Source: Owenia fusiformis (taxonomy: Eukaryota; Annelida; Polychaeta; Sabellida; Oweniidae). Taken from it: 64,000 nucleotides of DNA. The notes below the pieces were generated by a model. The model worked only from the letters and a program-made list of their open reading frames with translations, ran no database searches and was not told the origin of the DNA. A program made the position numbers and the translations under genes. Positions 15,101 to 59,290 of this stretch are shown here, in pieces. Position 1 is the stretch's first letter. The number at the start of each line of letters is the position of its first letter. Location of the stretch: the NCBI GenBank assembly GCA_903813345.2, contig CAIIXF020000005.1, positions 806,001 through 870,000 on the forward strand, in the 5' to 3' direction.

Positions 15101-18100
15101 CCTGTGAAATTCAATGTACTTACTTACCTGTGCACATGTACTGTAAATGTTTCCGTCATGCGCGTTGTGCAATTTTAAAAATCAAGTGATGCAAGTCATG
15201 AAATTTTATCTCTGAATTATTTGGATTTTATGGTTTTATCGTTACACTAAAGGATTATATACATTATGAATGAAGACAGTAACACTATTCGTAGATGTAC
15301 AGCATGCAAAAACCCTGTGAGGGATCATACAGGACCGGTAGGGGCAAAATGTACGAACACGCCCTCGTTGGAAACCGCACCCTTATTCGATAATAGCCAA
15401 CATGAACAAGATGAAAAACAAGAACTTTTCGAAGGAGCTGTTGGAGGCAGTAGTTAAGAAGGAAGTTGTTTGGACTTTTGTTTGAGGAATCTCAATCTTT
15501 TGGAAGTGTTTTCTTCTGAAAAAATAAAGCTAAGAAAATATGGAACCCTGGCAAATGGCTATAATTCAACTGTCCTCACAAATGCAGGTACTAACTTCCG
15601 CAACAACAAATTTACAAACCGAAATGAAAAGCCTAGCCAGTGACGTGGAACGCCTAAAAACCGGTTTGACTGCTCAACCGACCACACCTCAAAGTCAAAA
15701 CCAACCCGTCATTCCAACATCTGTCAATCCAGGTGTCAATCATAGACCTAAGCCAACGTGTGACTTACCACTTAGCGAAAAAACAATCAACGCAATCATA
15801 AACGGTGAGTACGTCAACTTGACCGACCTTTTTGCCGACAATGTGTATTCGGATAATGTAGATCATCCAGAACAAAATCTTATGTTCGAAGATGGGAATT
15901 TAAAACAGCAAAAATACCGAAAAGTCAAAACATTAGCAACGTTTAATCAGTGGCTAAGCGCATGGAATGTATTTGAGAATATATTGATTCAACACAATCC
16001 AGATTTATACACTTGTTTATCAAGTTACCGTAGTCTGATTCAAGATTCTGACAAAAAGTTTACATGGAAATCGGTGAATACTTACGATATTAAATTTCGA
16101 AGCAAACTCGCACAGAAAAAATCTTTCGATTATCAAACCATTGATACAACGCTCTATGTGACGACATTTGATGCAACGTCTGTCCGTCAACAACTCAAAT
16201 GTCATAGATGTCACGGAAACCACAAGGTCGCAAATTGCACTTTTCAAGAGAAATCCACGTTGGAGAAAGATCAGGAAAAGGAGATATGCTTTAAATTCAA
16301 TCAAGGGGAATGTAAATTCGGAGATAAGTGTTACAGACTCCACAAATGCAAAGCATGTGGATCAACATCCCCCAGTTTTAAATGCCCATGTACAAAACCT
16401 TCGAGCTCATCTTCCTCTTAATCATGTAGTCCTTCAAGAAGGTTTAAAAAACCACCCAGATAAAAAATACGTAAAACAGATTATAAATGGCGCAAAATTC
16501 GGCGTCTCTCTAGGATATACAGGACCAAGGATATCACGTGTGCAAAAAAATTGGAAATCATCTTCCATTAATAGTGAAGCTGTTCAAAAGAACATTGAAA
16601 AAGAAATCTCTAAAGGAAGGAAATTAGGTCCATATTTGAATATACCTTGTGATAATTTTGTTGGATCTCCAATGGGTGCTTACGAAAAGAAGCACTCGGA
16701 CCCTAAAAAGTTTAGGGTCATCCACGATCTGTCATGGCCTCCAGGAGAATCAGTAAACGACTATATTGATAAAGAGGAATATTCATGCCATTATATTACC
16801 CATGACGACATCGTGGATCTAATTAGGAAATATGGACACGAATGTCTCATCAGCAAGTTGGACCTCGAAGACGCATTTAAATTTATAGCTGTCCGTAAAC
16901 AGGACTGGTCCTTACTCGGAACAACATGGGAAGTATTAAACGAAAATACGAAACTTTTAGAAACACAATACTTTTTAGACAACGTTCTGCCATTCGGCGC
17001 ACGTAGTTTCGTATTTTCGTTTAATACTTCCCATGTTGTTCCGAGTAAGGACCAGTCCTGTTTACGGACAGCTATAAATTTAAATGCGTCTTCGAGGTCC
17101 AACTTGCTGATGAGACATTCGTGTCCATATTTCCTAATTAGATCCACGATGTCGTCATGGGTAATATAATGGCATGAATATTCCTCTTTATCAATATAGT
17201 CGTTTACTGATTCTCCTGGAGGCCATGACAGATCGTGGATGACCCTAAACTTTTTAGGGTCCGAGTGCTTCTTTTCGTAAGCACCCATTGGAGATCCAAC
17301 AAAATTATCACAAGGTATATTCAAATATGGACCTAATTTCCTTCCTTTAGAGATTTCTTTTTCAATGTTCTTTTGAACAGCTTCACTATTAATGGAAGAT
17401 GATTTCCAATTTTTTTGCACACGTGATATCCTTGGTCCTGTATATCCTAGAGAGACGCCGAATTTTGCGCCATTTATAATCTGTTTTACGTATTTTTTAT
17501 CTGGGTGGTTTTTTAAACCTTCTTGAAGGACTACATGATTAAGTGGAAGATGAGCTCGAAGGTTTTGTACATGGGCATTTAAAACTGGGGGATTTTGATC
17601 CACATGCTTTGCATTTGTGGAGTCTGTAACACTTATCTCCGAATTTACATTCCCCTTGATTGAATTTAAAGCATATCTCCTTTTCCTGATCTTTCTCCAA
17701 CGTGGATTTCTCTTGAAAAGTGCAATTTGCGACCTTGTGGTTTCCGTGACATCTATGACATTTGAGTTGTTGACGGACAGACGTTGCATCAAATGTCGTC
17801 ACATAGAGCGTTGTATCAATGGTTTGATAATCGAAAGATTTTTTCTGTGCGAGTTTGCTTCGAAATTTAATATCGTAAGTATTCACCGATTTCCATGTAA
17901 ACTTTTTGTCAGAATCTTGAATCAGACTACGGTAACTTGATAAACAAGTGTATAAATCTGGATTGTGTTGAATCAATATATTCTCAAATACATTCCATGC
18001 GCTTAGCCACTGATTAAACGTTGCTAATGTTTTGACTTTTCGGTATTTTTGCTGTTTTAAATTCCCATCTTCGAATATAAGATTTTGTTCTGGATGATCT

Positions 18101-21100
18101 ACATTATCCGAATACACATTGTCGGCAAAAAGGTCGGTCAAGTTGACGTACTCACCGTTTATGATTGCGTTGATTGTTTTTTCGCTAAGTGGTAAGTCAC
18201 ACGTTGGCTTAGGTCTATGATTGACACCGGGATTGACAGATGTTGGAATGACGGGTTGGTTTTGACTTTGAGGTGTGGTCGGTTGAGCAGTCAAACCGGT
18301 TTTTAGGCGTTCCACGTCACTGGCTAGGCTTTTCATTTCGGTTTGTAAATTTGTTGTTGCGGAAGTTAGTACCTGCATTTGTGAGGACAGTTGAATTATA
18401 GCCATTTTCCAGGGTTCCATATTTTCTTTGCCTCCAACAGCTCCTTCGAAAAGTTCTTGTTTTTCATCTTGTTCATGTTGGCTATTATCGAATAAGGGTG
18501 CGGTTTCCAACGAGGGCGTGTTCGTACATTTTGCCCCTACCGGTCCTGTATGACCCCTCACAGGGTTTTTGCATGCTGTACATCTACGAATAGTGTTACT
18601 GTCTTCATTCATAATGTATATAATCCTTTAGTGTAACGATAAAACCATAAAATCCAAATAATTCAGAGATAAAATTTCATGACTTGCATCACTTGATTTT
18701 TAAAATTGCACAACGCGCATGGCGGAAACATTTACAGTACATGTGCACAGGTAAGTAAGTACATTGAATTTCACAGGTAAGTATAGATGTCATGCTAGGA
18801 TGAGAACTATACAATCGATCAAAATAAACTCCAATTTATGAATATAAATACACATTTACTTTTCTCTATAAATAACTAACAACTTTGTTCTGGGCTAAAA
18901 GACGATTTATTAATTAAATAATTATAATATAAATGCAAACACAATTAATACGAAGATACACACAATAAAATTAAAAACTATTAACCGCCCCCTGTGTTGT
19001 ATTCCTTAAATAAATTAAGGGTGGGGAGGGTTGGGTGATTTTTAAAATTGCACAACGCGCATGACGGAAACATTTACAGTACATGTGCACAGGTAAGTAA
19101 GTACATTGAATTTCACAGGTAAGTATAGATGTCATGCTAGGATGAGAACTATACAATCGATCAAAATAAACTCCAATTTATGAATATAAATACACATTTA
19201 CTTTTCTCTATAAATAACCAACAACTTTGTTCTGGGCTAAAAGACGATTTATTAATTAAATAATTATAATATAAATGCAAACACAATTAAGGTGCTATGG
19301 AAGTTAACAGGAAATGACAAAACAGGAAGTGACAATTTTTTTTGCATTTTTAGATATTTTTTGAATAAAGATAACAGAGTTCTGGTTTGACCTCCAGTCA
19401 ATTTAACTATTTCCACATATCATTTACATGACCAGGATCACAATGTGCATGGTCAGAATGACCCTAAACATGATGAAATAACCTTTTTAGCCCTTTGAAA
19501 GTGTGACTGAAAAAAGCTAAAAGTAGGAGCGTAGGGAAGGTCACTGAACAGAATCTTTTGAATTTTTCAGAAAATGTGCCCAATATATTGCTCTAAATGA
19601 TACAATCTTTGAAAATTTGATATCATTCATAGAAAAAGAAAAAAAATGAAAAAAACGATTTGAAAAGCGATCTATTTTCCTTTTTATGACCGCCATTTTT
19701 GTTTAAGACAATTTTCTAAAATTTCAAAGATTGTACTAGTTAGAGCATTATATTGGGCACGTTTTCTGAAAAATTCAAAAGATTCTGTTCAGTGACTATC
19801 CCTACGCTCCTACTTTTAGCTTTTTTTCAGTCACACTTTCAAAGGGCTAAAAAGGTTATTTCATCATGTTTAGGGTCATTCTGACCATGCACATTGTGAT
19901 CCTGGTCATGTAAATGACATGTGGAAATAGTTAAATTGACTGGAGGTCAAACCAGAACTCTGTTATCTTTATTCAAAAAACATCTAAAAATGCAAAAAAA
20001 ATTGTCACTTCCTGTTTTGTCATTTCCTGTTAACTTCCATAGCACCTTAATTGGATGAATTGTTGGTTGTTTGGTTGGTTGATTGATTGGTATATATATA
20101 ACATGTATAAGTGTATGTACATGTATAAGTACAACTGAGTTCAGACACACTTATTTTGCTCCTATTATTATGTGAAATATAAGGATATTTAGGATTATTT
20201 GGACAAATATATGGATATCACAGGATTCATGAATGGATAGGCGTGATAAACAGATGTGATTTATTGGAATATTTTTCGTGGTTCTGAAGATATTTGTAAA
20301 AGAAAAATACACATTTTGTGTGATGGATCTATAAATGACAGGGTCATAGGTCAACACAGAGCACATGTACTAGACTTTGCCATTATACAGTCACACTAAT
20401 CAGCTACTTATTGGATTTGTTAGCTCACTATTTATATGCCAGTACGTGTTACTATACTTGACTGACTTCACTCAGAATATAATCATATAGTGTTTTGGGT
20501 GCAATCAACTACACATAACACCATGCCACAGCTGACACAAGCACCTATTACTTAGTATGCAACAACAAAAACAAAACCACCTGATCGATCCAGTCTACCT
20601 GTTACGTCTTCTACCTATATGTCAGTTATTACAACTAGTGTTATATCATCAAGAGCCTCATCTGCAAATATGACATTCACAGTTCCAACCATGGAAAATA
20701 TGTCTGGAAGTTTTCATTCGTTGGTTTCAGAATCTCCGCATCAATCTCGTTTGGACAACACAACGTCTCACTCTTTGGCTCCCGATCGAATATCATCATC
20801 ATTTTACACAGATCCATTACTACCTCAACAAGACAATGAGTGTGCATCTCAAATCTCAAGCTTCAACTTAAGCGAAATTACAACAGCTATAGAGTCTCAA
20901 ATCAGCGCCTCGCTAAATAAATTAATTCCTCAATCTATCGACAGATCCATGGCAGTGTACAATCAAAGACTCTCGGACGCTGAAACATCTATTCAACAAC
21001 TGAAAGATATCAATGATTCCTTCGAATCTGATCTGATGCAGGCCAATGATGAAATCATTGGTATAAATAAACGTTTGGCAGACATTGAGGCAGATTCAAA

Positions 21101-41000: not shown

Positions 41001-42394
41001 CAGGGTGACCGGAAAAAAAGGAGACCCAAAAGATTTTGAATAACTTCCTTAATAATGATGATTTTGTTTTCATCTTTCAGGTGAATAAAGCTGATTCAAT
41101 GGAATTTGTTGTGGAAATATCATTTTAACCAATACGCCATGGACATTGGAGCAAAAAACATTTGCGGTAGAGACCTATTTTAGGACCAAATCAATAGTAT
41201 CAGTGCAAAGACAATTCCACAGGCAATTCAGATGTCGTAATCACCCAAGGAAATGTGTAATATTCAAGTGGGTTACAAAGTTTAGGACTCATGGGACACT
41301 TGGCAGACTCAACAGAAAAGATAAAGATCGTGAAACCCACTCAGGTCGAAAGAGATCTCAAAGAACTGCAGACAACATCGACCGTGTGCGTGACTCAGTG
41401 GCACGTAGCCCAAGAAAGTCACTTCGCAGGCGCAGCCAGGACCTTGATATGAAACGTGAGACAGTAAGAACAATCTTAGAGAAAGATCTCAACCTATATC
41501 CTTATCGGATACAAGTCAAACACAAGCTGACAGATAGTGATAAAGAACAGCGTGTCGCAATGTGCCATTGGTTTAGTGCAATGATTGACAATGACGAGAA
41601 CTTCCTGGATGAAATCTGGTTTAGTGATGAAGCACACTTCTTATTGTCTGGTCACGTCAACTCACGCAACAATGTTTTCTGGGGATCAGCCTTGCCTGAT
41701 TTTGTGCTTCAGAGACCGCTTCATAGTAAAAAGGTCACTGCCTGGGTTGCGATTTCTAAACACGGAATAATTGGTCCTTATTGGTTCGAAGATAATGACG
41801 AAAAGCCTCAAACAGTCAACACAGAGCGTTACATTATCATCCTAAGGAAGTTTTGGGCAGCCCTTGGTCGCCGTAGGAGAGTTAATCGTGCCATACAGTG
41901 GTTCCAGCAAGATGGTGCGACTCCCCATACCTCAAATGACTCACTAGATTGGCTAAACCAACACTTTGAAAACAGGATCGTTAGCCGTAGATCAGATAAC
42001 CCCTGGTCTCCACACATCCCAGACTTGAATCCCCCCGATTTCTACCTATGGGGCTTTTTGAAAGATCATGTATACGAAAACAACCCCCAGACAACTGGTG
42101 ACCTTAAGAGGGCAATAACTGCCAAGTGTAATGCCATTACAAGAGCTGAATGTGTTAGCGTAATTGACAATTTTGCCAGACGAATCCAGCTGTGCCTCAG
42201 GCTCAATGGTGGCCATTTGGAGCATGTACTCTAAATGATGACAGCTCCTGAACCAGTAAACAAATGTTATTGAAACTTTCAGGAACAAATTTCCATAGAA
42301 TTGTCCTGGACTGTGCAAAATTTCATTGATGATACTTGTATATTTTAGAAAATATTGCCTATTTCAATGGTCTCCTTTTTTTCCGGTCACCCTG
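41001..42394 (+). mobile_element. DD41D mariner-like transposon, nearly intact
   Basis: The ends are a perfect 26-bp inverted repeat starting CAGGGTGACCGGAAAAAAAG, flanked by TA at 40999-41000 and 42395-42396. The 1394-bp unit contains one transposase frame. Identical ends and an unbroken frame of 362 codons mark it as the youngest transposon in the window. Confidence 0.9.
41146..42234 (+). CDS. Transposase, IS630/Tc1/mariner superfamily, DD41D type
   Basis: The frame encodes 362 residues: an N-terminal helix-turn-helix pair (about 5-50 and 75-115), the linker HSGRKRSQRT, and a DDD catalytic core with Asp161 (IWFSDEAHF), Asp256 (WFQQDGATPHT) and Asp298 (IPDLNPPDFYLWG), 41 residues between the last two. 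The core is uninterrupted. The start is odd: the open frame has no in-frame ATG near its beginning (it opens at about 41095, and 41146 is TTG), while an ATG at 41139 reads one frame off into MDIGAKN. A small indel just after the natural start is likely, so this copy is probably disabled unless frame-corrected or spliced. The role is cut-and-paste mobilisation of CAGGGTGACC-ended elements at TA. Confidence 0.88.
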   Translation: MEQKTFAVETYFRTKSIVSVQRQFHRQFRCRNHPRKCVIFKWVTKFRTHGTLGRLNRKDKDRETHSGRKRSQRTADNIDRVRDSVARSPRKSLRRRSQDLDMKRETVRTILEKDLNLYPYRIQVKHKLTDSDKEQRVAMCHWFSAMIDNDENFLDEIWFSDEAHFLLSGHVNSRNNVFWGSALPDFVLQRPLHSKKVTAWVAISKHGIIGPYWFEDNDEKPQTVNTERYIIILRKFWAALGRRRRVNRAIQWFQQDGATPHTSNDSLDWLNQHFENRIVSRRSDNPWSPHIPDLNPPDFYLWGFLKDHVYENNPQTTGDLKRAITAKCNAITRAECVSVIDNFARRIQLCLRLNGGHLEHVL

Positions 42395-42892: not shown

Positions 42893-45800
42893 CTGAAAAA
42901 ATGATTTTTTTTTAAAATTAGAAATTGTATTTTTATCTGTTTTTGTGTTTTATGTTACTACGGTGTTACTGTTTCAGCAAGATATAATCACATTTTAAAA
43001 TGTACATAGGAATCTACAGGAAAAAATACTTGTTAATCTTATTAATTATGAAAAATCACTTAATTATTTATTCTACCCTACTCCTGCCTGCACTTAATAC
43101 ATCATGCATAATACTTCGTCCATGCACATACCCTTACATATGTATACATACATTATTTCATGCAAAAAATTTCATACATAAAATTTGCTATATACCATAT
43201 TATCATACGTTAAAAAGGTAAACATGCACTTCATATAATTGGGACTTGCAACTTGTGTTTCACTGGTGATCCGCTCGATTACGCTGGTTACCGAAATGGT
43301 TCGTTTTGGTAACAAAATGTCGGAACGTCGAAGGTAAGATTTTTCTTTTTTCCTTATTTCCAGCGTTGTATGCAGAATCCCCACGACGTTTTTTTCTCAC
43401 AAACGTGTATCAGCATCATATGTTTTAGAAAATATACATGTTTGCAAAAAAATAGCTCAGAAGACAGCAGAATCGTCGATTTAATTCTTAAGTTACATAA
43501 ACGGTTTTGGTTAAAAGTGCAGATCTTAACTGTTTTTCGAAAAACCGTTTATGTAACTTAAGTGAGGAATTAAATCGACGATTCTGTTGTCTTCTGAACT
43601 ATTTGTTCGCAAATATGTACATTTTCTTAAACTTATGATACTGATACACGTTTTTGTTAGAAATGTTGTGGGAATTCTGCCTACAACGTGTGGAATAAGG
43701 AAAAAAAAGAAAAATCGTACCTTTGAGGTTCCGACATTTTGTTACCAAAACGAACCGTTTCGGTAACCAGCATAATCGAGTGGATCACCAGTGTGTTTGA
43801 ACATTGGCATCAGGCATGTCAGGAATTCCTGAAAAGGTTGACATTTTAACAAAGTCAACATGTAGATTTTGAACACCCTCTATGTTTAGAGTATGGTCTG
43901 AGTATAAAGTAGATTGAATACATACTCTAGGACTACAATAAAGTCTAGGTTAAGAGTATAGTCCAGACCATTATCTAGGTAAAGAGCATCATCGAGGTCT
44001 GGAGTATAGTCTAGGTCTGGGTCTAGCCAAAGTACAGTCTTAGTCTAGAGTCTAGTTCTGGAGTATAACCGTGGTCTACAGTATAGTCTAGAGTATTGCA
44101 TAGCTCGTCAGTATTGTGTAGGTCTAAAGTACTGTATACTATAAGTCTAGCGCATTTTCTAGGTCTAGAGTAAAGTCTAGGTCTAGCATATTATCTAGGC
44201 TATTGTCTAGGTCTCGAGCACAGTCTAGATCTAGAGTAATACATATATCTATATCTGTTTGTATTTTACAGATATTGCCCTTAGTGACCCCAGGATGGAG
44301 AGACATCACGAAGGGCAACATCAGATACACTAAACTTCATATCCTATATGCCTGTTTCATTCACCTATTTTCAGAATGACGAGGTGCTAGACATTCTTAA
44401 CCCTCAGCCATAACCAGGCAGATCCATATTGTTAGTATTTTAACTAAATTCTGTACAGCAAGCCTCAGCCTCTAACTAATGTGTTTTGTAGTGGATTTAA
44501 TGGTCATTCACCAGTAGCTTAAATTTTATCTTTACTAAATTTTCTAAATTTGAATGGACGAGTAAAATATTTTTTGACGACCATCCTAAAAATATGAAGG
44601 AGAATTAACATGCATCTGCCCATGCAACAATTTCATTTTTAATGTGATTGTACAAAGACAAAATTCATAAAAAGATATATTAAAATCAAAACTATGCCAT
44701 TAGTATAGTAGGAACAAGGGGTTCCCATGCACCCATAAGGTGTGAATAAGTTACATACATTTTTGTAATCCCTAGGGTGTCTATTTAATGAATTCATTTG
44801 TTAACATTGCCAACTGATGTCCCATAGTACTTTTATGGCGGCATTCAGTTACCATGGTTACGCATCTTTAGACATCTTACCTTGGTATCTTAAATCATTT
44901 GTAGCTCTGTCATTATTTGGTCTATAGAAATGATATTGGTACCAAATTAAACCTCGTTAAATTTCCAATAAATTTCTGATATTCAATTATGCAAATTATC
45001 TAATTTGCATAAATTATGACGTCATCAATCTATTTTTGGTTCAGAATTTCCAACTATAGCAACGAATCTATTAGAACTGAGGCCATATGGCAAAATTTCT
45101 GAAAAGTTTTGTCCTTTATTCTATTAGTAGAAGATATAAGCAACATAAAAGTGAAAACAGATTCAAAATTGAATCAGTTTTACGAAAGTTATGTAACTTT
45201 AGAGGCAGCTATCGTGAATGTCATTATTTGACAATAATATACATTACGTCTTACCTTGGAGTCTTGAATCAATGTAGCTTCGCCATTATTTGGTCTATAG
45301 AGATGATATTGGTATCTGATTAAACCTTATTAAATTTACTATATGGTTACAATATTCAGTTATGCAAATTAGCTAATTTGCATTAATTGTGACGTCATCA
45401 ATCCATTTTTGGTTCAGAATATCCTAGTACAGCAACATATCTATTAGAACTGAGGCCTTATGACAGAATGTGTGCATAGTTTTGTCCCTTATTTGATGAG
45501 TGGAAGATATAAGATATAAGCAACATTAAAGAGACAACAAATCTTCAAAATCGGATCAGAATTAACAAAATTATCCAGCTTTGGAGGCAGCTTCTGTGAA
45601 CGTCATTGTTTGACAATTATCAAAAGAATATTAAATTAACAAAAAAAGTAACAACCATAGTTGTTTTAATCTTATTGAGTAAAAATGTGCATGTATTGAA
45701 CTGAACTAATAAGTATGTGGAAAGGTTACATGTATTTTGACTATCATTCACAGGGCTCAAAACGATTATCTCGACCCTGTATATTAAAGATCCAATTTTA

Positions 45801-48800
45801 TGATTTACCATGCACTTTCAATGATTCATATAAATAGTATACACATAGTCTGATTTTCATCATATTCTTCATATTCTTGATTCTTAAAGCATCTGAAGTA
45901 TAAAGCATGATTAGAAGTGAAGATGATTCATCATATGGTTTATGTAATATTTCTAACATTTCAGATGCTATGGTAACGTCACTTGATAATGAGGTTTTTA
46001 CATTTCACGTTCTTAATGAGTTAAAAGGAAGTTATGCTCCCTTTGCTTTAGAGATAAATAGTCGCATGAATTTGTTTAGAAAAATTATAACTTAATTAAT
46101 TTAACCCCCCCCTTACCCTGCGTGCAGAGTCTAGTTAAACTACACTCTGCCTAGTAGAGACCATATTGCAGTTTAGTAGCCCCGCACTCACAACGGGTAC
46201 CAGTGACAGTTTGGGTAATAAATCACACATAAATAAACATACGCCAAATGCGTTCTAATTAAATGTTCATATGTCATTGGTCAATTCCGTGCTCAAAGAT
46301 GATGTCAGAAGGAATGGCCATATATAGAACGTCGGTCAAATTTGGCCGACAAACACTGATTGGCGCGGTGAGTTCACGGGTTTATTTTAGTTTGAAAGAG
46401 TGAAGACGAAGCTCTCTTTTAAGAAGTGAAGTCAAACGAATGCAAAGGGTAGGTGAAACCTGGCAAAATACATTAATTATTAGGTTCCAGAAGCCCCCAG
46501 AAGCTATATGATGGCCCCAAGAATCTATACAGGGGCCCCAAGTGGCCCCCAGAAGCTATACTGTTCTCCCCAGAAGCTATATGTTGGCCCCCAGAAGCTG
46601 AATAGTGGCCCCCAGGAGCTATACGGTGGCTCCCAGAAGCTATACAGGAAACCCTGTGGCCCCCAGGAGCTATACGGTGGCGCCAAGAAGCTATATAGGG
46701 GCCCCCAGTGGCCCCAAAAAGCTATGCGGTGGCCCCCACAAGCTATACGGGGGCCCTCAGAAGCTATACTATGGCCCCCAGAAGCTATACAAGGGCCCCC
46801 AGAAACTATACTATGGTCTCCAGAAGCTATATGATGGCCCCCAGTGGCCCTCGGAAGCTATATGATGGCCTCCAGAAGCTAATTAGTGGCCCCTAGGAGC
46901 TATACGGTGGCTCCCAGAAGCTATACAGGGGACCCCAGTGGCCCCAAGAAGCTATACGGTGGCCCCCAGCAGCTATACAGGAGCCCCCAGTGGCCCCGAA
47001 AGCTATATAGTGGCCCCCAGAAGCTATACAGGGGCCCACAGTGGCTCCCAGAAGCTATACGATGGCCCCCAGAAGCTATGCAAGGGCCCGCAGAAACTAT
47101 ACGGTAGACCCCATAAGCTATATGATGGCCTCCAGAAGCTATAGTGTCTCCCAATGGGCCACCATATAGCTTTGGGGGCCACCGTATAGCTTCTAGGGGC
47201 TACTGGGGGCCCTGTATAGCTTCTGGGAGCCATTGGGGGCCATCATATAGATTCTTGGGGCCATCGTGTAGCTTCTGGGGGCTGCTGTATAGCTTCTGGG
47301 GGCCACCATATAGCTTCTTGGAGCCACTGGGGTTCCCTGTATAGCTTCTGGGAACCACCATATAGCTCCTTGGGGCCACTAATTAGCTTCTGGGGGCCAT
47401 CATATAGCTTCTGAGGGCCACTGGGGGTCACCATATAGCTTCTCGAGACCACAGTTTAGTTTCTGGGGGCCCTTGTATAGCTTCTGGGGGCCATCGTGTA
47501 GCTTCTGGGGGCTCCTGTATAGCTTCTGGGGGCCATCGTATACCTTCTGGGGGCACTTGGGGCCCCTGTATAGATTCTTGGGGCCACTGGGGGCCATCAT
47601 ATAGCTTCTGGGCGCTTCTGGAACATAATAATTAATGTATTTTGCCAGGTTTCACCAAAATCTTCAAATATGGGGGCTGTCAGGAGGTGGTTAAATTAAG
47701 TTATAATTTTTTTAAACAAATTGATGTGACTATTTTTCTCTAAAGCAAAGGGAGAATAACTTTATTTTAACTCATTAAGAACGTGAAATGTAAAAACCTC
47801 ATTATCAAGTGATGTTACCATAGCATCTGAAATGTTAGAAATATTACATAAACCATATGATGAATCATCTTCACTTCTAATCATGCTTTATACTTCAGAT
47901 GCTTTAAGAATCAAGAATATGAAGAATATGATGAAAATCAGACTATACGTATACTAGTACTATTTATATGAATCATTGAAAGTGCATGGTAAATTATAAA
48001 ATTGCATCTTTAATATACAGGGTCGAGATAACCGTTTTGAGCCCTGTGAATGATAGTCAAAATACATGTAACCTTTCCACATACTTATTAGTTCAGTTCA
48101 ATACATGCACATTTTTACTCAATAAGATTGAAACAACTATGGTTGTTACTTTTTTTGTTAATTTAATATTCTTTTTATAATTGTCAAACAATGACGTTCA
48201 CAGTAGCTGCCTCCAAAGCTGGATAATTTTGTTAATTCTGATCCAATTTTGAAGATTTGTTGTCTCTTTAATGTTGCTTATATCTGCCACTCATCAAATA
48301 AGGGACAAAACTATGCACACATTCTGTCATAAGGCCTCAGTTCTAATAGATATGTTGCTATACTAGGATATTCTGAACCAAAAATGGATTGATGACGTCA
48401 CAATTAATGCAAATTAGCTAATTTGCATAACTGAATATTGTAACCATATAGTAAATTTAAAAAGGTTTAATCAGATACCAATATCATCTCTATAGACCAA
48501 ATAATGGCGAAGCTACATTGATTCAAGACTCCAAGGTAAGACGTAATGTATATTATTGTCAAATAATGACATTCACGATAGCTGCCTCTAAAGTTACATA
48601 ACTTTCGTAATACTGATTCAATTTTGAATCTGTTTTCACTTTTATGTTGCTTATACCTTCTACTAATAGAAAAAAGGACAAAACCTTTCAGAAATTTTGC
48701 CATACGGCCTCAGTTCTAATAGATACGTTGCTATAGTTGGAAATTCCGAACCAAAAATAGATTGATGACGTCATAATTTATGCAAATTAGATAATTTGCA

Positions 48801-51800
48801 TAATTGAATATCAGAAATTTATTGGGAATTTAACGAGGTTCAATTTGGTACCAATATCATTTCTATAGACCAAATAATGACAGAGCTACAAATGATTTAA
48901 GATACCAAGGTAAGATGTCTAAAGATGCGTAACCATGGTAACTGAATGCCGCCATAAAAGTACTATGGGACATTAGTTGGCAATGTTAACAAATGAATTC
49001 ATTAAATAGACACCCTAGGGATTACAAAAATGTATGTAACTTATTCACACCTTATGGGTGCATGGGAACCCCTTGTTCCTACTATACTACATGAGATGTT
49101 TACCATTGGCTCAAAAACTGACAGATGGATGAGTGTTCCCATTGGCTCAAAAACTGATGAAATCATCTTGCTGATATTGGGTACTTTAGTAATATAGTCC
49201 TGCTGCAGACAACAACCTTTTTGTTTCAGACAACTGTGCAAAATTACTTTTGTTAGACAAAGAACACAAGTAAATAAGAATGTTAATGCGTTGAGAATTG
49301 TTCAAAGTGGTATTAGTGTCAATTAGATTTCTCCAAGCCTACACAACATGTTAGCTTGTACTACAAACAAATGAAAACTACTAACAAGACACAGCAGAGT
49401 ACTCATATATTACTCATATGACAGAATATACACATATAAAACAGACCACTCACAGGACAAAGTACTCATATGACAGACTACTTGTATATACAACATGTTA
49501 CTTATATGGTAGACTACTCATATGGCATGGAGCTCATATGATAAATATACATAATTGTCACACCACATGGTACTCATATGACAGAGTACTTATATGATAG
49601 AGTACTCACTGAATGTGATACTCATATGATAAAGTACTCACTGAATGTGATACTCATATGATAAAGTACTCACTGAATGTGGTACTCATATGATAGAGTA
49701 CTCACTCAATGTGGTACTCACATGATAGAGTACTCACTCAATGTGGCACTCATATGATAGAGTACTTATATGACTGACTGCTCATATGATAGAGTACTAA
49801 TATGATAGAATACTCACTGAGTGTGGTACTCATATGATAGAGTACTCACTCAATGTGGTACTCATATGATAGAGTACTCACTCAATGTGGTACTCATATG
49901 ATAGAGTACTCACTAAATGTGGTACTCATATGATAGAATACTCACTGAATGTGATACTCATATGATAGAGTACTAATATGACTGACTGCTCATATGATAG
50001 AGTACTAATATGATAGAACACTCACTGAATGTGATACTCATATGATAGAGTACTAATATGACTGACTGCTCATATGATAGAGTACTAATATGATAGAATA
50101 CCCACTGAATGTGATACTCATATGATAGAGTACTTATATAACTGACTGCTCATATGATAGAGTACTAATTAGATGATAGAATACTAACTGAATGTGATAC
50201 TCTTATAATAGAGTACTTATATGACTGACTGCTCATATGATAGAGTACTAATATGATAGAATACTGACTGAATGTGATACTCATATGATAGAGTACTCAT
50301 TGAATGTGGTACTCATATGATAGAGTGCTCACTGAATGTGATACTCATATGATAGAGTACTAATATGACTGACTGCTCATATGATAGAGTACTAATATGA
50401 CTGACTGCTCATATGATAGAGTACTAATATGACTGACTGCTCATATGATAGGGTATTTATATGTTTATTTTCAACAGGGTACATGCTTGACAAAGTTTTC
50501 ACATGATATGGTACTCATATAACAATGTAAACAAATGACAAAGTACGTAAATGACAAGTTACTCACAAGACCAGAGTACTCATGAATTGTGTTTTAGAAA
50601 AAAATTAATTAATTACTCATATGACAGAATATACACATATAAAACAGACCACTCACAGGACAAAGTACTCATATGACAGACTACTTGTATATACAACATG
50701 TTACTTATATGGTAGACTACTCATATGGCATGGAGCTCATATGATAAATATACATAATTGTCACACCACATGGTACTCATATGACAGAGTACTTATATGA
50801 TAGAGTACTCACTGAATGTGATACTCATATGATAAAGTACTCACTGAATGTGATACTCATATGATAAAGTACTCACTGAATGTGGTACTCATATGATAGA
50901 GTACTCACTCAATGTGGTACTCACATGATAGAGTACTCACTCAATGTGGTACTCATATGATAGAGTACTTATATGACTGACTGCTCATATGATAGAGTAC
51001 TTATATGATAGAATACTCACTGAGTGTGGTATTCATATGATAGAGTACTCACTCAATGTGGTACTCATATGATAGAGTACTCACTCAATGTGGTACTCAT
51101 ATGATAGAGTACTCACTGAATGTGGTACTCATATGATAGAATACTCACTGAATGTGATACTCATATGATAGAGTACTAATATGACTGACTGCTCATATGA
51201 TAGAGTACTAATATGATAGAACACTCACTGAATGTGATACTCATATGATAGAGTACTAATATGACTGACTGCTCATATGATAGAGTACTAATATGATAGA
51301 ATACTCACTGAATGTGATACTCATATGATAGAGTACTTATATAACTGACTGCTCATATGATAGAGTACTAATTAGATGATAGAATACTAACTGAATGTGA
51401 TACTCTTATAATAGAGTACTTATATGACTGACTGCTCATATGATAGAGTACTAATATGATAGAATACTGACTGAATGTGATACTCATATGATAGAGTACT
51501 CATTGAATGTGGTACTCATATGATAGAGTGCTCACTGAATGTGATACTCATATGATAGAGTACTAATATGACTGACTGCTCATATGACACAGTACTAATA
51601 TGATAGAGTACTAATATGACTGACTGCTCATATGATAGAGTACTAATATGACTGACTGCTCATATGATAGGGTATTTATATGTTTATTTTCCAACAGGGT
51701 ACATGCTTGACAAAGTTTTCACATGATATGGTACTCATATAACAATGTAAACAAATGACAAAGTACGTAAATGACAAGTTACTCACAAGACCAGAGTACT

Positions 51801-54800
51801 CATGAATTGTGTTTTAGAAAAAAATTAATGGAAAAATAATTCAAAATCTACATTTTTCTGATCTGTTATAAGAGTGTGAGAACATAATATTAAAAAGGAG
51901 TAAAAACAGGTACAGTGTATTTCAAAAAAAATAATAAAAAAGTTGTATTCAAAGCCAATCCCAGCAAGCCCATAGCCAACAATGAAATACAGGCAGGTAT
52001 TGTAAAACAAGACTTTACAGTTAACCATGAGGGGGGAGGTACAATACATGATACATTCATGGAAACTTAAAATTAAAAGGGTCAAGTTTAAAATGAGTAA
52101 TTTCTCATTAAACCTGACATCCTTTAATCACATAACAGTCTAACAAAATGGAAATCACTTGTTTTACAATTCAAACTGTACACATGTAGATTACATACAC
52201 TAAGAAAGTACAGAAAAAATCTAGACATAGAGTATATATTTTAACAATGTTTACATTGTATCTTAGCGCATCTAGATAGTCCATCAAGAATCTAAAAAGC
52301 AATAAAAACAATGAATGTCAATTTGAATGAAAATTGCGATCTTTTGCATTCAAAATACATCTGAGACATGAAAGATAAAGATAAATAGAATTGAACCCCA
52401 TGATTAAATAAATTTTCATGTGAATTCTTTTTTAAGGTCATGCTGATTTCGCTTGATTTGCTTGATATTCATTTAATTTCATAGAATTTTAAGTGCACAC
52501 TTCATGCATATTTCATCCATTCCTTGTTCATTTCACTCATTGTTCTCTATTTTGAATTTCAAATAATGACTACCATGATATTATTAACTCTTGTCCCAGA
52601 ACTCAATTTGAAATAAATCAAAAATAGATGAGGCATTATTAAAATAACAAACTAACATATAAAGGTTGAAAAAAAATACTTCTCATTTTGGTTAAAGGCC
52701 CCGTGTATAGTTTGACAATATTGCTTAATCGTCCAATTTATTTGTAATTATTATCATTTGTCATGACTTGAAAAATTGTATGAAACATTTTTTTGAAAAA
52801 AGTTGTTGGTCTTTTCAAATATTTGAGTTTCCCGCTGATTTAGCGTCTCAAGTTTAGATTTTTTCGGAAGTAAGGAAGTGATATTTGACCTGATTCATGC
52901 AAAACAATATATTTCAAGGAAGGCAAAGTCAGTCAATTTCTGTTTTCAAATTTGCATCATGTTGTTAATCCATTGACTAAATAGTCAGATAAACCATCAG
53001 ACATGGCCTACCTTAAAATGACACTAATCATAGTCAATTGTTCTATTTAAAGATCTCAATGTATGGTGTTTAGCTTTATTTCAGCAAATTATGCTCATCA
53101 TACTTAAAATGTTCTATTAATTTAGGGGAAATTGTACACTAGACTCTTGACACAAAGTCATGTAGTTTTTCCAAATCTCAAACTTTAAATTCTATATCTT
53201 TGTTGACATTGAAATGACATAGAAGTTAAATAAAGAGTAAAACGCACGTTACTAGGGCTTGTATTAAAAAGCTGTAGCAAAAATTGTCAATCTAGCCTTA
53301 CAGATTATTACTTGTTTTATTTTTGGGTTACCATGACAATGTATTAGTATACAGACACTCGCACTTACCTGGTGATGTAGGTGTCATAGGTGATGTAGGT
53401 GTCATTGGTGAGGTTGGTGATGTTGGTGTATCACCGTTCTCACTTATAGTGCTATCTCTGTCTGCCATTGACTTCTGAAAATATAATTACATTTCGTATT
53501 ACACTAACCCTGAAGAGTGTTATGCATAAAAGTAGGATTAAAATAGAGATGTAGCGCTGCATTTGGGTAATGCAGTCAATATGGTACAACGAAAATGGGA
53601 CTTCTGCGCATGTTAAATTTTTTCGTCAAAACTCAACTTTTGTTCAAGTTGATACGATTGTCTTTCGAACTAGACACTTACCTCATTCGAAAGATCATAA
53701 AAGACTTTATCTATACTGAAAATCTTAGATCCAAACATAGTAGAATACGCCGTCAGTCCGCATTTGATTTTTTGAAGTGAGTTTCGTAGATCGTCAGATT
53801 TCTCCGACTGATATCGGGTTATCTCAAATTGGTTCGTTTATAAATACGAATTTCTTTACCGTTGTAAGGCGCATGCGCAAAATTGATTTATAAAACGTTA
53901 TTGGTTGATGGTTTTTCTCCTGAGCATGCGTGAAGTCTGATGACACTTATGACGAAGACCGGAGCAAACATTACTAGCTCTCGAACGAAATTCCAAGATT
54001 CAGATCATTTCGCCGTGTTTGCTAAGCGTGTATACGTGAATGACAAGCTGTTTTGAGTCGATCAGGTACCTGTTTTAGACACAACATTGATTTAGCTTGA
54101 CATTTATGTGCTCATTGGCACTTTTGAGCATGTTAATACAAGTTTTTACACTCTTAGCACGAAACGGGTTTTCGAAAAATCTGTTATCTGATTCACTCGA
54201 TTATCGTATGGATATGTATTTCTGCTGACATTTCAACACCACATCACATAGAATTACGATGCAGAATGATAATAAAACACAAAACAACTACTAAATTCCA
54301 CTTGTTATTTCACAGGAGGTAAAAATGCAAACTGCCTAGATTCTTTGGAAGGGTCGTCAGACATCGGATTGGCCGCCATATTTGAAATGAAAATATCACT
54401 AAATAGAGGTCTGCGCATGTCTAAACATTTCGACTGAATGATTAAGATATCTAGAGATAAACTTCTGGGTTTATTTTCTACAAATGCGTCTCCTTTGAGC
54501 TATTGTGCAAGTTTCTACATGGATAAAGACCATAACAAAAGCAAAACATACAATTAAGCATAAGTTCTTTACTGCATAAAACTAATGTATTGTACACAAA
54601 ATGTCCAACCTTTTTTGATCGCCTTCTCTTTTTCTTTTCTTCATCTGACGAATGGTGAGCCTGCGCCTTGGACAGTCTTCGGAACGAACTCAACTGCATG
54701 AAAAATCACAATAATTAGACTTAATACTAGATATAGTAACTTCATTTATATCTGTCATTTCTGATGTCATTAATCTATAGACTACATTCACACTATACAT

Positions 54801-57800
54801 AAATTATGGCAAATGACCATTGAAAATCATGTTGAACTATTTGTAGTATTACTGTATTGTAGTATTCTTTGAAAAATCAATAAATATCAGATAAAAAAGC
54901 AATTATTTTTTCACTAATATACATAAGTGAAAAAGCCAAAGTGCCTATTACTCTGGTCAGAGATTATGCATATTTAGACTATCTCAAATTAATCACTTAC
55001 AAATTTCATTTCCTCTTTCATTCGTTTGTCCACCTCTAATTTGGCAGCTCTGATTGCTTCCTTCAATTTGCTGGGGATCTTAAGGACTGGCTTCTCTGTG
55101 TGAGATAATGTGGTAGCACTGAACAGCCTAAGCATCAGAAAAAGAATCATGTCAAAAACAAGTACGATATCTGAATTTTTATTATCATTACCCGAGTTAA
55201 TTGAATTACTGCAAGTATGAGTTACAAAAAGATACATGCAACGTTCTGTGCAATTCAAACTGTTTTTAAAGAAAAATCACTTAGACCACTCACGATGTAA
55301 AAACCATGTTTTGATATATAAGTAGACTAAAATATATGACATAAATCTATTTAATCTATATAGATATCATTAGTAATGGTACTTACGGATGTAGGAGAAG
55401 ATCAGATACACTTGGGATGCCATTTTTGCAAGCTTCACTGGTTAGGACAGATTCTAAAACTCCCCCTGGAATATGCAGAAAAACACTAAATAAGATAAGG
55501 CTACCTGCTACACAGCCAATATAATTCGGGGCTGTTTCAGAATCAAAAACATTCGGCGCTGTTCCGGCACCGTTTTGACACCGTTCCGGCACCAAAACCT
55601 TTCGACACCAAAATTTGCCACCGGACTAGTCTGTAGTCAGTCTATTTGGTGCCAAAACGGCACCGAAATTTGGCACTAAAACGGCGTCGAAAATCAGATT
55701 GCATTTTGGGGGTGTAAGTGGACTTATTGCAAATGAAGCAGAGACCACAAATGATGATGCAGATTACTGAATGGCCATCACTTTAAATGGTGGCTCTAAC
55801 GGCTCTAACAATATGACAAAAAAAGTCAGTGACAACTATTCCTTGAAAAAAGTCATTTTTGGCCCATTCCAATCGTAAATTATTACAGGAAAGAGTAAAA
55901 GCCATTATCATCTCTATTAAAATGGTGCATATCAGGTTGTCATGGCAAAGTGGTTTAATTTGATGAAAACTTAAAATATGGAAATCATGTTTATCATTTA
56001 TTTTGAACTTACTTATTTCAGGAGGACATTGAGCAGGAAACTGATCACAATTGGCTCTACCAAGTGGTTGGCCAAATGTCATCTCAAACAACACTTGGCC
56101 AAAACTGTAAGAGTCTAAAGATTCAGATGTCTGGAATTTACAAAAATTCTGTAATATTTGGCTTTGTAACTAAAGAAATAAAAGATATACACTATCTAAA
56201 TAACAAAAAATAAATTAAGATACATCTAAATAATAAAAAATTAAAAATCATAGTAAAACTTGGATTAACCACTAAACTACAGGTATATGAAACATTAACT
56301 TACAAAAGGTGTTTACTTGCATTCTTAATATTTTACTTAACAAGGGTTTAGATTTTGTCGATTGGAAAAATAAATTAGTCAAAGGAAGTCCATGAACTGC
56401 ATGTTGGGAAATGGATGAGAAAATTTCACTTACTAATATTTTTTTATACTGCACAATGTAAGGTCTGTAGTATGATGGTAACCCTAGTAACCAGTTCTCA
56501 ATGTCTAATAATTTACATGTGTTGCCTTCTAGAATGATATTCCCTGTGTGAAGATGACCTAGAAGTAAATCAAGAGACAATAAACAATGTAGTTTTGAAC
56601 AAGATGAATGAAAACCTGCCTAATCTGAACATTGGATTGGCTTAATAGCAGGTGTCCACATTTCAATTTTCTTTAACATGGTATTTTATGATATATTAAA
56701 AATAAAAATATGAGAGTCATGCTAAATGTCACAAAGGAAACAAGGCATTGAGATGCAAAATGACACCACCTGCCATTTGTTACAGATGCCATTTGGTACA
56801 GACACCATTTGGTACAGATGCTGAACACTATAACAATATGTCACAACTTGTGGTGGTGACTATCATGAGAAATCATGGGCTTCTATTAGCTTCACTCTCT
56901 AGTATATTATAGTTTATATTTCTAGTTTAAGACAGAAAGATGTGATGAGTATCAGAATGGGTGGTGACATGAAAAGGTGATTATCACAATATGTCACCAC
57001 ATTTTTATGTTTACATTAATGAGTTGACATAAAAATTACTCACCAAATGGCAGACCTTTATCTTGTAAATATTTCATGGTTTCCAGTAACTGTTTTCCTA
57101 TGACTTTGATTTCATGCAACTGAAGGCCTTGACGCTGTTTTGGGTTTGGGTATTTCTTTAGAAAGGGATATCTAACTTTGGCTTTACATATATAGTCCCT
57201 TAATGTGCCTTTTTCATTAAATGTTCTAATGGCTAGACCGCCTGCTTCATTACTTGTTGAAAACTCCACTGGGTAAATGTATGGATGCTGAAAATCAAAA
57301 CATGTAGTTTTCTTTACTCCTTGAAGTTTGTACATCTTTTAAAAAGTAACATGAAAATCTTATTACCTTTATATCATGATCTCTGTTATATATCATTTTA
57401 GAGATATTATGCCATTCTACAAATTTGGTAGAATATGCAAATAAGATTGCTGTCTTATGATGTCATAATTAACATGACCGTCATTTCTTAAAATAAATGC
57501 CTAACATTAAGAGAGATGAGCGAGAGTGAATATAAGTTTTGCTGTTACAGATCATTAAAGTCTCAAAATGCTTTTCACAATCTTATAGTAGAAGTGGAAT
57601 ACATCTATACAGAAAGCAGTATATGAAATACAAACGAGAAGCCCAGTGCCAATTTGCTTTTGATTAATGGGCCATATTTCACACATTTCAAACATACCCG
57701 GAATGATGACACAAACACATTTCAAACATATCTGGAATGATGACACATACACATTTCAAACATAGCTGGAATTATGACACATACACATTTTAAACATACC

Positions 57801-58516
57801 TGGAATAATGACACATACACATTTCAAACATAGCTGGAATGATGACACATACACATTTTAACATACCTGGAATGATGACACATACACATTTTAAACATAC
57901 CTGGAATAATGACACATACACATTTCAAACATAGCTGGAATGATGACACATACACATTTTAACATACTTGGTATGATGACACATACACATTTTAAACATA
58001 CCTGGAATGATGGCGTATACACATTTCAAACATAGCTGGAATGATGACACATACACATTTCAAACATACCTGAACTGATGACACATATTTTAAAGATACC
58101 TGGAATGATGACACATACACATTTCAAACATAGCTGAAATGATGACACCACATACACATTTTCAACTAACCTGAAATGATGACACATACATATTTTAAAC
58201 ATACCTGGGATGATGACACATACATATTTTAAACATACCTGGAATTATGACACATACACATTTTAAATATACGTGGAATGATGGCACATACAAATTTTAA
58301 ACATAGTTGGAATGATGACACATACACATTTTAACATACCTGGAATGATGACACATACCCATTTCAAACATAGCTGGAATGATGACACATACAAATTTTA
58401 AACATAGTTGGAATGATGACACATACACATATTAAACATACCTGGAATGATGAGAAAAGCTTCATAATTGCTTGTAAGTTGGAATCTGAGAGGAACTTGT
58501 CCGGGCCGTAATCACT
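42711..58516 (-). CDS. PXK: PXK, PX-domain pseudokinase (MONaKA): nine 3' exons, 5' part off window
   Basis: PXK is an endosome- and membrane-associated adaptor with a PX domain, a kinase-like domain and a WH2 actin-binding tail; in mammals it binds the Na,K-ATPase beta subunit. Exons, in order: 58442-58516, 57044-57287, 56434-56558, 56013-56130, 55387-55465, 55001-55127, 54610-54693, 53369-53474, 42711-42892. All phases fit. Recognised blocks: DYGPDKFLSD, HPYIYPVEFSTSNE, FNEKGTLRDYI, GLQLHEIKVIGKQLLETMKY, GHLHTGNIILEGNTCKLLDI, SEACKNGIPSVSDLL, EKPVLKIPSKLKEAIRAAK, SDEEKKKRRRSKK, and the WH2 end RSSLLSSISGFSKSGLKKTE. The catalytic HRD is replaced by HLH and DFG by DIE, as in human PXK, so it is a pseudokinase. 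The PX domain exons should lie to the right. The last intron (10.5 kb) contains a fold-back element and a large minisatellite. Confidence 0.93.
43261..43793. mobile_element. Hairpin MITE with CACTGG ends and TGTTT duplication
   Basis: 533 bp, flanked by TGTTT (43256-43260, 43794-43798). The two halves are nearly perfect complements from CACTGGTGATCCGCTCGATT inward through GAATCGTCGATTTAATTC and AAGTTACATAAACGGTTTT to a centre at about 43530. CAC-starting ends and a 5-bp duplication match the pattern of the 27462-31273 element. Confidence 0.8.
43799..44240. repeat. Degenerate GTCTAGGTCTAGAGTA repeat
   Basis: From about 43890 to 44240 a worn tandem repeat of TCTAGGTCTAGAGTATAGTC words. Minus frames read Leu-Asp repeats without protein meaning. 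The stretch before 43890 is plain. Confidence 0.7.
44989..45024. promoter_or_regulatory. Octamer palindrome plus CRE, copy 1
   Basis: ATGCAAATTATCTAATTTGC followed by AT (44989-45010) is a near-perfect dyad of the POU octamer ATGCAAAT, and a perfect CRE TGACGTCA lies six bases on (45017-45024). Functional role unproven. Confidence 0.5.
45362..45397. promoter_or_regulatory. Octamer palindrome plus CRE, copy 2
   Basis: ATGCAAATTAGCTAATTTGC then AT (45362-45383) is a perfect 22-bp palindrome; TGACGTCA at 45390-45397. Confidence 0.5.
46490..47635. repeat. CCCCCAGAAGCTATA core arrays in opposite orientations
   Basis: Left array 46490-47143 has units such as GGCCCCCAGAAGCTATAC, spaced about 22-24 bases with GGTGG, GATGG or AGGGG linkers. 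The right array 47144-47635 is the same in reverse complement (GTATAGCTTCTGGGGGCC). The GC-rich core contrasts with the AT-rich arms. Frames in it read Pro-Arg-Ser-Tyr-like repeats and are not genes. Confidence 0.9.
48393..48428. promoter_or_regulatory. Octamer palindrome plus CRE, copy 3
   Basis: CRE TGACGTCA at 48393-48400 and the perfect 22-bp octamer palindrome at 48407-48428, mirror of copy 2. Confidence 0.5.
48766..48801. promoter_or_regulatory. Octamer palindrome plus CRE, copy 4
   Basis: CRE TGACGTCA at 48766-48773 and the near-perfect octamer palindrome at 48780-48801, mirror of copy 1. Confidence 0.5.
49411..51828. repeat. TACTCATATGATAGAG minisatellite in two tandem 1.2-kb copies
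   Basis: Units of about 31-32 bases (TACTCATATGATAGAGTACT plus CACTGAATGTGG) mixed with TACTAATATGACTGACTGCT units. The entire array with its flanks is duplicated: 49411-50613 repeats at 50614-51828 with period 1203 at the start. The first 350 bases and the GTGTTTTAGAAAAAAATTAAT end are almost identical. The second copy has one extra 31-bp unit group near 51585. Confidence 0.93.
51829..53368 (-). other. PXK last intron, 5' part
   Basis: AT-rich, with no gene or clear repeat found. The PXK donor CACCAG|GTAAGTGC begins it at 53368. Confidence 0.45.
53369..53474 (-). CDS. PXK: PXK exon: Thr/Ser/Pro repeat linker
   Basis: The acceptor is ATATTTTCAG. It encodes KSMADRDSTISENGDTPTSP then TSPMTPTSPMTPTSP. 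The ACACCTACATCACC unit is a short tandem repeat, so length may vary between alleles. Phase 0 in, phase 1 out. Confidence 0.85.
53475..54609 (-). other. PXK intron with a GC-richer block
   Basis: From 53550 to 54420 the sequence is richer in CG dinucleotides (GCGCATGCGC, TCGTCAGATTTCTCCG) than its surroundings and lacks a coding frame. It could be an unrecognised inserted element; no inverted ends were found. Confidence 0.4.
54610..54693 (-). CDS. PXK: PXK exon: basic linker
   Basis: Twenty-eight codons, LSSFRRLSKAQAHHSSDEEK then KKRRRSKK, corresponding to the human RRLTRAQSHHGSEEERKKRK. Acceptor TTTTTCATGCAG, donor AAG|GTTGGA (a weak donor). Confidence 0.87.
55001..55127 (-). CDS. PXK: PXK exon: kinase C-lobe end
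   Basis: Encodes LFSATTLSHTEKPVLKIPSK then LKEAIRAAKLEVDKRMKEEM and KF. EKPxxKIPxKLKEAL is a PXK hallmark. Donor TTT|GTAAGTG. Confidence 0.9.
55387..55465 (-). CDS. PXK: PXK exon: SEACKNG segment
   Basis: Encodes GVLESVLTSEACKNGIPSVS then DLLLH, matching human VLESTLSCEACKNGMPTISR. Acceptor GCATATTCCAG, donor CC|GTAAGT. Confidence 0.9.
55550..55695. repeat. Short imperfect repeat of GGCACCGTTTTGACACC type
   Basis: GTTCCGGCACCGTTTTGACA and related forms (GTGCCAAAACGGCACCGAAA) lie on both strands of this intron segment. The unit is about 17-20 bases, partly inverted. Too short and degenerate to classify. Confidence 0.45.
56013..56130 (-). CDS. PXK: PXK exon: SYSFGQVLFEMTFG segment
   Basis: Thirty-nine codons from TSESLDSYSFGQVLFEMTFG to CPPEI, plus one base. 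This is the aF helix region of the kinase fold (human ESVDVHCFGHLLYEMTYG). Confidence 0.9.
56434..56558 (-). CDS. PXK: PXK exon: degenerate catalytic and DFG loops
   Basis: Completes Gly, then HLHTGNIILEGNTCKLLDIE and NWLLGLPSYYRPYIVQYKKI L. HLH stands for HRD, and DIE for DFG. Acceptor TTTACTTCTAG, donor TTA|GTAAGTG. Confidence 0.92.
57044..57287 (-). CDS. PXK: PXK exon: kinase N-lobe
   Basis: Eighty-one codons, HPYIYPVEFSTSNEAGGLAI through KGLPF, plus one base. FNEKGTLRDYICKAK matches human FNEKGTLKDLIYKAK. Acceptor TTTGATTTTCAG, donor G|GTGAGT. Confidence 0.92.
57685..58441. repeat. 33-34-bp minisatellite made from the PXK exon-intron boundary
   Basis: About 22 units of CATACCTGGAATGATGACAC plus ATACACATTTTAAA lie directly next to exon 58442-58516. 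The first unit includes the last 12 bases of that exon and its donor. On the minus strand each unit reads CATCATTCCAG|GTATGTTT; about ten units keep CAG|GT, the others have CAG|CT, CAA|CT or similar. The array makes up two thirds of the 1154-bp intron. Confidence 0.92.
58442..58516 (-). CDS. PXK: PXK exon: DYGPDKFL segment, most 5' exon in the window
   Basis: Twenty-five codons, SDYGPDKFLSDSNLQAIMKL then FSSFQ. Acceptor TATTTTACAG, donor CAG|GTATGT, phase 0 on both sides. It links the PX domain to the kinase domain in the family. Confidence 0.9.
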
Positions 58517-58559: not shown

Positions 58560-59290
58560 CTTAACAGAAGTATGGGTATGACATGAAAGGGTGTGACATA
58601 AGAGGGTATGACAATAGGTTGTGATATAAGAGGGTATGACATAAGATGGTATGACATTAGAGGAAATGACATAAGAGGGTATGACATTAGAGGGTATGAC
58701 ATAAGATGGTATGACAGAAGAGGGAATGACATAAGAGGGTATGATAAAAGAGGGTATGGCATATGAGGGTATGACATAAGATGGTATGAAATAAGAGGGT
58801 ATGACATAAGAGGGTATGACATATGAGGGTATGACATAAGATGGAATGATATAAGAGGGTATAATATAAGAGTGAATGACATAAGAAGGTATGAGATAAG
58901 AGGGTATGATAAAAGAGGGTATGACATAAGAAGGTATGCCATAAGAGGGCATGACATAAGAGGGTGTGACATAAGAGGGTATGACACAAGAGGGTATGAC
59001 ATAAGATGGTATGACATAAGAAGGAATGACACAAGAAGGTATGACATAAGAGAGTATGATATAAGAGGGTATGACAAGAGGGTGTGACATAAGGGGTGTG
59101 ACATAAGAGGGTATGACATAAGAGGGAATGACATAAGAAGGTATGACATAAGATGGTATGACTAGAGGGAATGACACAAGAAGGTATGACATAAGAGAGT
59201 ATGGTATAAGAGGGTATGACATAAGAGGGTGTGACATAAGAAGGTGTGACATAGGGGTGTGACATAAAAGGGTATGGCATCAAAAGGACA
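58560..59290. repeat. 15-bp minisatellite, GACATAAGAGGGTAT
   Basis: About 48 units of 15 bp with variants (AAGATGGTAT, AAGAGGGAAT, ACAAGAAGGT). Because 15 is a multiple of three, minus frames stay open (Pro-Ser-Tyr-Val-Ile repeats), but these do not look like a protein. It lies in a PXK intron, just upstream of the donor-derived array. Confidence 0.93.

Follow-up and report, generated by a model that had tools for sequence, protein, structure and literature searches.

Why should an intron carry many copies of its own 5' splice donor, and what becomes of the message if these copies are used? We addressed this question in a 64,000-nt (64-kb) stretch of the Owenia fusiformis genome (contig CAIIXF020000005.1), hereafter the window, in which a minisatellite directly follows a 75-nt coding exon of a kinase-like gene on the minus strand. 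An earlier note on this DNA had read the array as a ladder of decoy donors, whose use would lengthen the exon stepwise or which could compete for U1. We found that the array does hold decoys identical to the true donor in their 9-base site, that all extensions built from them meet one common stop, and that the GT of the units is not visibly conserved. Probably, the array is a neutral minisatellite that arose by tandem duplication across the exon-intron border and is tolerated since the exon-proximal donor remains.

The repeat unit and its host exon

Tandem Repeats Finder (TRF) detected a minisatellite with a 34-bp period at 57681-58453 (22.9 copies, 86% matches, score 1127), with 101 bp and 169 bp as alternative periods. 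A Hamming scan of the minus strand divided the array into 23 units when the exon copy was counted; unit lengths were 30-37 bp, and the final unit was partial, with 27 bp counted. The earlier estimate of about 22 units adjoining the exon was accurate. The consensus of the unit is CATCATTCCAGGTATGTTTAAAATGTGTATGTGT, i.e., 12 exonic and 22 intronic bases, and the array is contiguous with the exon: unit 0 (58452-58419) contains the exon end and the real donor. The exonic 12 bases common to exon and unit are TCATCATTCCAG, confirming the proposal that the unit spans the exon-intron border, opening with the exon's final 12 bases and its donor. On its left the similarity has its edge within the exon; on its right it breaks off mid-unit. 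A 25-bp core of the unit, searched with at most 3 mismatches on both strands of the window, gave 19 matches, all 19 of which were within the array; the same search gave 0 matches in 100 shuffles, and the exact core gave 0 matches in viral contigs.

The 23 units were then classified by the sequence at the exon-intron joint (marked here by a slash). CAG/GT was found in 11 units, CAG/CT in 6, CAA/CT in 2, and CAC/GT, CAA/GT, CAG/AT and CGG/GT in 1 each. GT was present at +1/+2 in 14/23 units, and the exact site CAG/GTATGT in 9/23, i.e., the true donor and eight copies. The first of these copies is the first GT decoy (Table 1); the first intron bases of the other seven are 58238, 58204, 58069, 58001, 57900, 57866 and 57799, and CAG/GTTAGT at 58170 and CAG/GTATCT at 58099 lie in the same stretch and strand. 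These counts agree with the earlier description of about ten intact CAG/GT units (10 besides the true donor) and of CAG/CT and CAA/CT classes. The spacing of 33-34 bases or multiples described for the CAG/GT sites held approximately; the gaps between consecutive sites were 102, 101, 34, 34, 71, 30, 68, 101, 34 and 67.

The host gene was reconstructed from eight minus-strand exons, all with AG and GT borders, which join into 319 codons with no stop. This join supports the exon at 58516-58442 and its donor. The reading over the junction is ...MKLFSSFQ/HPYIYPV..., in which the exonic part of the unit encodes SSFQ. The first 256 residues matched Pfam PF07714 (PK_Tyr_Ser-Thr) with 27.8 bits (cutoff 23.1) and PF00069 with 25.5 bits, under its cutoff of 31.7. 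The PK_Tyr_Ser-Thr match covers residues 15-125 and crosses the exon junction at 25/26. By the general layout of kinases, we take the exon end to be the end of helix C ahead of an HPNI-like turn, and human PXK presumably has the same spacing at this point. The name PXK itself is our assumption, taken from the earlier note and from general features of the human protein and not from a database match.

Searches of the PDB with a 256-aa fragment gave protein kinase A as the best match (E 0.004; 60 of 61 matches listed, E up to 10). A 55-aa fragment over the junction gave a single match, a penicillin-binding protein with E 0.2, which was taken as chance; a solved homologue confirming the exon end residue by residue was not among the results for either fragment. 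No PX domain exon was recognised by eye in the minus-strand translations up to 64000, and such an exon may fall outside the window. A search for the kinase in viral contigs returned 2 pattern matches, neither confirmed. Active kinases carry the motifs HRDxxxxN and DFG. The kinase-like domain at 56434-56558 on the minus strand reads HLHTGN and LLDIEN, and judged by these motifs its catalytic site is probably degenerate.

The exon end probably predates the array, which would have been copied from it, because SSFQ abuts HPYIYPV, the Pfam match crosses the junction, and the spacing is presumably that of kinases and PXK. The opposite order is also conceivable: a satellite beside the exon may have come first, and its repeat unit may have taken over the last 12 bases of the exon. 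The unit of the exon does match the consensus across the exonic bases. However, the exon end is in unbroken frame with the next exon and lies inside the Pfam kinase match, and within the window the unit core gave matches in the array only; we consider this order very unlikely.

Table 1. Features of the array and its host gene (positions in the window)
Feature	Position	Strand	Basis
75-nt coding exon, whole codons, SDYGPDKFLSDSNLQAIMKLFSSFQ; its final 12 nt form the exonic portion of the unit	58442..58516	-	exon join
1154-nt intron, of which the array makes up 760 nt	57288..58441	-	exon join
Next exon, HPYIYPVEF..., acceptor TTTTCAG/CATCC	57044..57287	-	exon join
Six further exons: 56558-56434, 56130-56013, 55465-55387, 55127-55001, 54693-54610, 53474-53369	53369..56558	-	AG and GT borders, stop-free join
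Minisatellite, 23 units, exon copy counted	57682..58453	-	TRF, Hamming-scan parse, 25-bp core search
True donor CAG/GTATGT, first intron base 58441	58436..58444	-	matrix score, unit parse
First GT decoy CAG/GTATGT at +102, 9-mer identical to true donor	58334..58342	-	unit parse
Stretch holding seven more exact CAG/GTATGT copies	57794..58241	-	unit parse
Last unit CGG/GTATGT, first intron base 57697, +744	57692..57700	-	unit parse
Common TGA of read-through extensions	58364..58366	-	13 extended messages

A second, different minisatellite (15-bp period, 47.7 copies by TRF) occupies 58574..59280 and ends 57 nt upstream of the 75-nt exon, without overlap. The exon is thus wedged between a 34-bp and a 15-bp array.

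Strength and variation of the copied donors

To score splice sites, we used generic donor and acceptor matrices, not trained on this species, and a generic U1 5' end. The true donor scored 9.9, the second highest among the 8 donors placed in the gene (range 3.8-12.7). The eight exact copies scored as the true donor does, and the remaining five GT units scored 0.9-8.7. Scoring of every unit, which the earlier note had suggested as a check, thus yielded eight decoys with a 9-base site identical to that of the true donor. In the window, 23 minus-strand sites reached at least the score of the true donor, 9 of them within the 0.77-kb array, compared with 18 sites on the plus strand. RNA pairing was also considered as a shield of the decoys and was rejected, as the predicted local pairing was no stronger over the copies than over the true donor.

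A reading of donor retention as a sign of function was not supported by the variation among units. Position +1 deviated in 9/22 intronic copies and was the joint most variable column, tied with column 19. The nine donor columns were no less variable than the rest, with a mean of 2.33 deviations per column versus 1.72 in the other 25 columns, and 8/34 circular placements of the nine-column block gave a value as high or higher, the real placement counted. Neither column variability nor circular placement in the 22 intronic copies gave any sign that GT is preserved in the units, and selection for GT was set aside on these tests.

The variants themselves indicated how donors were lost. G at column 19 was carried by 6/6 CAG/CT units versus 1/11 CAG/GT units (Fisher p 0.0006, a descriptive value only, since units copy one another), and both CAA/CT units carried another variant in common. 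The linkage of the column-19 G to the CAG/CT units suggests that donor loss spread largely through copying, probably as blocks with a small number of mutant units were multiplied. In a comparison limited to the 17 units with a length of exactly 34 bp, likeness was 0.924 between units three apart versus 0.888 between neighbours. Together with the 101-bp and 169-bp periods found by TRF, this is ordinary block amplification.

We also considered whether the extra donors act without being cut, i.e., as a landing pad for U1 that boosts definition of the 75-nt exon or shields the transcript from early cleavage. The dense U1-complementary sites would suit such a role. However, the sites show no visible conservation, and neither AATAAA nor ATTAAA was found on the transcribed strand of the 1154-nt intron, leaving no such signal to protect against. 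This role appears highly improbable to us.

Frame outcome and dual AG/GT character

For each of the 13 GT decoys, we built the extended message and appended the next four exons. The same in-frame TGA was met in 13/13 extensions, at codon 51 from the exon start and 25 codons past the exon end. All share it because even the nearest GT decoy, at +102, is beyond this stop, which falls in the first 78 nt of the intron. From the common stop to the exon junction that follows the next exon the distance is at least 268 nt, and messages extended in this way would be expected to undergo nonsense-mediated decay (NMD). Therefore, stepwise exon lengthening would yield no graded protein series. By their translation, the decoys could only make truncated, NMD-prone messages; among the 14 GT units, the frame stays open solely with the exon-proximal donor.

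Such an outcome might be put to use as a splicing rheostat, in which decoys compete for U1, stop-carrying messages are degraded, and array length or a splicing factor tunes the protein level. The eight exact copies of the true 9-mer are consistent with this idea, as are the 13/13 decoy isoforms with the same early stop and exon junctions further downstream; in addition, the 75-nt exon extended to 177 nt would stay within normal exon size. We nevertheless judge it unlikely, because no conservation of GT is visible among the units and truncation is the default outcome for such an array, for which reason the stop requires no selection.

The neutral minisatellite, which we favor, would have formed as follows. 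We infer that a tandem duplication, with one end in the last 12 bases of the coding exon and the other in the intron, came first, and that slippage and block (higher-order) amplification then multiplied the unit to 22 intronic copies. As copies were presumably added on the intron side, the exon would have retained its own donor and reading frame, and because both were kept, the change would have been nearly invisible to selection. Almost all productive mRNA most likely comes from the exon-proximal donor. The copied donors, equally strong by sequence, would probably be used at a low level, giving extensions that end at the common stop and would be degraded.

Several observations weigh against this explanation. 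Over the eight exact copies, the U1 pairing energy ranged from -8.4 to -8.6 kcal/mol (true donor, -8.6 kcal/mol) and the probability of being unpaired from 0.003 to 0.099 (true donor, 0.014). That is, eight decoys are equal in 9-mer, near-equal in U1 pairing and not hidden, and the sequence gives no reason for their being ignored. Intron-proximal sites are favoured by SRSF1 and intron-distal ones by hnRNP A1 (PMC5585400); given the preference of SRSF1 described there, intron-proximal decoys could win. In the minisatellite of the human gene IFI6, two downstream repeat units are reported by a citing paper to serve as donors, which gives three mRNA species (PMC4526556). Moreover, the exon-derived columns of the present array vary less than the intron-derived ones (mean 1.36 vs 2.13).

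The CAG/GT units also resemble acceptors, a property absent from the earlier note. Before their AG stands TGTATGTGTCATCATTCC, or a variant close to it, which makes the AG acceptor-like. With the generic matrix, acceptor scores reached 10.5 at the exon end and ranged from 5.75 to 8.9 over the 10 copies; the 8 acceptors placed in the gene spanned 3.6-10.0, and the mean of 3281 AGs on the minus strand was 0.8. When dual sites were called with cut-offs of 8 for the donor and 5.5 for the acceptor, chosen after seeing the data, 10/14 minus-strand sites in the window fell within the 0.77-kb array, compared with 0/5 plus-strand sites; one of the four minus-strand sites outside the array is the gene's own placed donor at 53368. 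As judged by these scores, the array is a run of dual AG/GT sites. Splicing of the true donor to the AG of a unit would rebuild CAG/GTATGT in the eight exact copies, as recursive or dual-specific splicing requires of the sequence.

If the units served as both acceptors and donors, the intron might be removed stepwise (recursive splicing) or as introns within an intron. Rebuilding of the donor at a unit would then leave the final mRNA unchanged and render the decoys harmless. The frequency of CAG/GT (11/23 units), acceptor scores within the range of the gene's placed acceptors, and the concentration of dual sites under post hoc cut-offs agree with this scheme, and the 11 CAG/GT units offer 51 donor-acceptor pairs at least 60 nt apart. 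Dual-site use in tandem repeats is documented by Duan et al. 2024, who describe a tandem array of dual-specific splice sites in UBC, and also VCX3A, and report that dual-site introns are 8.4-fold overrepresented in human tandem repeats (PMC10809524). However, splice-site likeness differs from use: in the same paper, few AGGT words act as sites, with 6.9% acting as 5' and 3.5% as 3' sites at >10 reads (PMC10809524). In addition, our matrix frequencies were generic and not species-trained, and a 1.15-kb intron needs no stepwise removal. We regard this scheme as quite unlikely. That a working ladder of dual sites exists, with splicing proceeding stepwise through the array or stopping there and ending in degradation, and with repeat number setting the productive fraction, is in our estimate distinctly improbable.

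Neighboring features, known parallels and significance

Elsewhere in the window, a large foldback element at 44701-49089 has outer arms of ~1.4 kb in three pieces that are 95-98% complementary, and encloses 21-bp arrays in mirrored order (46493-47143 and 47172-47612). A perfect palindrome at 15529-18431 consists of two arms of 1427 bp each that are 100% complementary and separated by 49 bp, and holds open reading frames (ORFs) resembling retroelement pieces by eye; it reflects either an inverted duplication that is very recent or a fold-back in the assembly. Around it are more perfect inverted copies (15024-15449, 18429-18854 and 19036-19196), which bear paired CACAG/GTAAGT words 26 bp apart. 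A long ORF at 2313-4133 strongly matches PF00858, the family of amiloride-sensitive sodium channels (E 2.9e-85), and another at 41095-42234 resembles a mariner/Tc1-type transposase by eye. Rfam at gathering thresholds and a tRNA scan each gave 0 matches in the window.

The nearest parallel to the present array is the donor minisatellite of IFI6, reportedly described by Turri et al. in 1995. Human alternatively spliced introns are likewise said, in the title of Zhuo et al. (PNAS 2007), to derive from tandem arrays. As reported for IFI6, minisatellite units supply splice donors after one exon, and the unit is of the same type, composed of an exon tail and a donor, with the first unit contiguous with the exon and holding the real donor. 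The two differ in that the IFI6 donors are reported to be used and to give isoforms, whereas 13/13 extensions here stop early when read from the sequence.

The array also resembles the UBC and VCX3A repeats in having tandem units with an AG/GT readable as a 5' or 3' site (PMC10809524), and by the generic matrices both kinds of site score comparably with the gene's placed sites. Unlike the UBC array, which delimits coding monomers, the present array is intronic, meets stops, and has 12/23 units without CAG/GT. Intron gain via tandem AGGT duplication offers a further comparison, with the Rogers model, ATP2A1, 24-bp repeats in fission yeasts and potato RdRp as cases (PMC4974935). Tandem short AGGT copies are common to both, and the potato RdRp duplication described there also spans an intron-exon border (PMC4974935), but here an existing intron was enlarged and no new intron is shown. 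Among the matches listed, intronic minisatellites or variable number tandem repeats in ABCA7 and TERT intron 6 are reported to be linked to splicing. The DDX3Y/MSY2 minisatellite was set aside as a precedent, being a promoter and start-site case. Among the publications listed, which cover the literature in part, none had a title about an array of this kind in PXK or a mollusc. The anatomy of the array is thus unusual but of a known kind.

The locus provides a test piece for splicing choice, in which the true donor and eight identical 9-base sites all lie no more than about 650 nt from a single exon. Across the array, position varies while site strength hardly changes, which poses the question of which donor is chosen, and why. 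The array is also a counterpart to the IFI6 case that we infer to be non-human. If the dual-site ladder did work, the minisatellite would be a heritable, fast-mutating dial on the splicing of a kinase-like gene. The array further points to a way for an intron to lengthen, in which its own border is duplicated and the protein stays intact.
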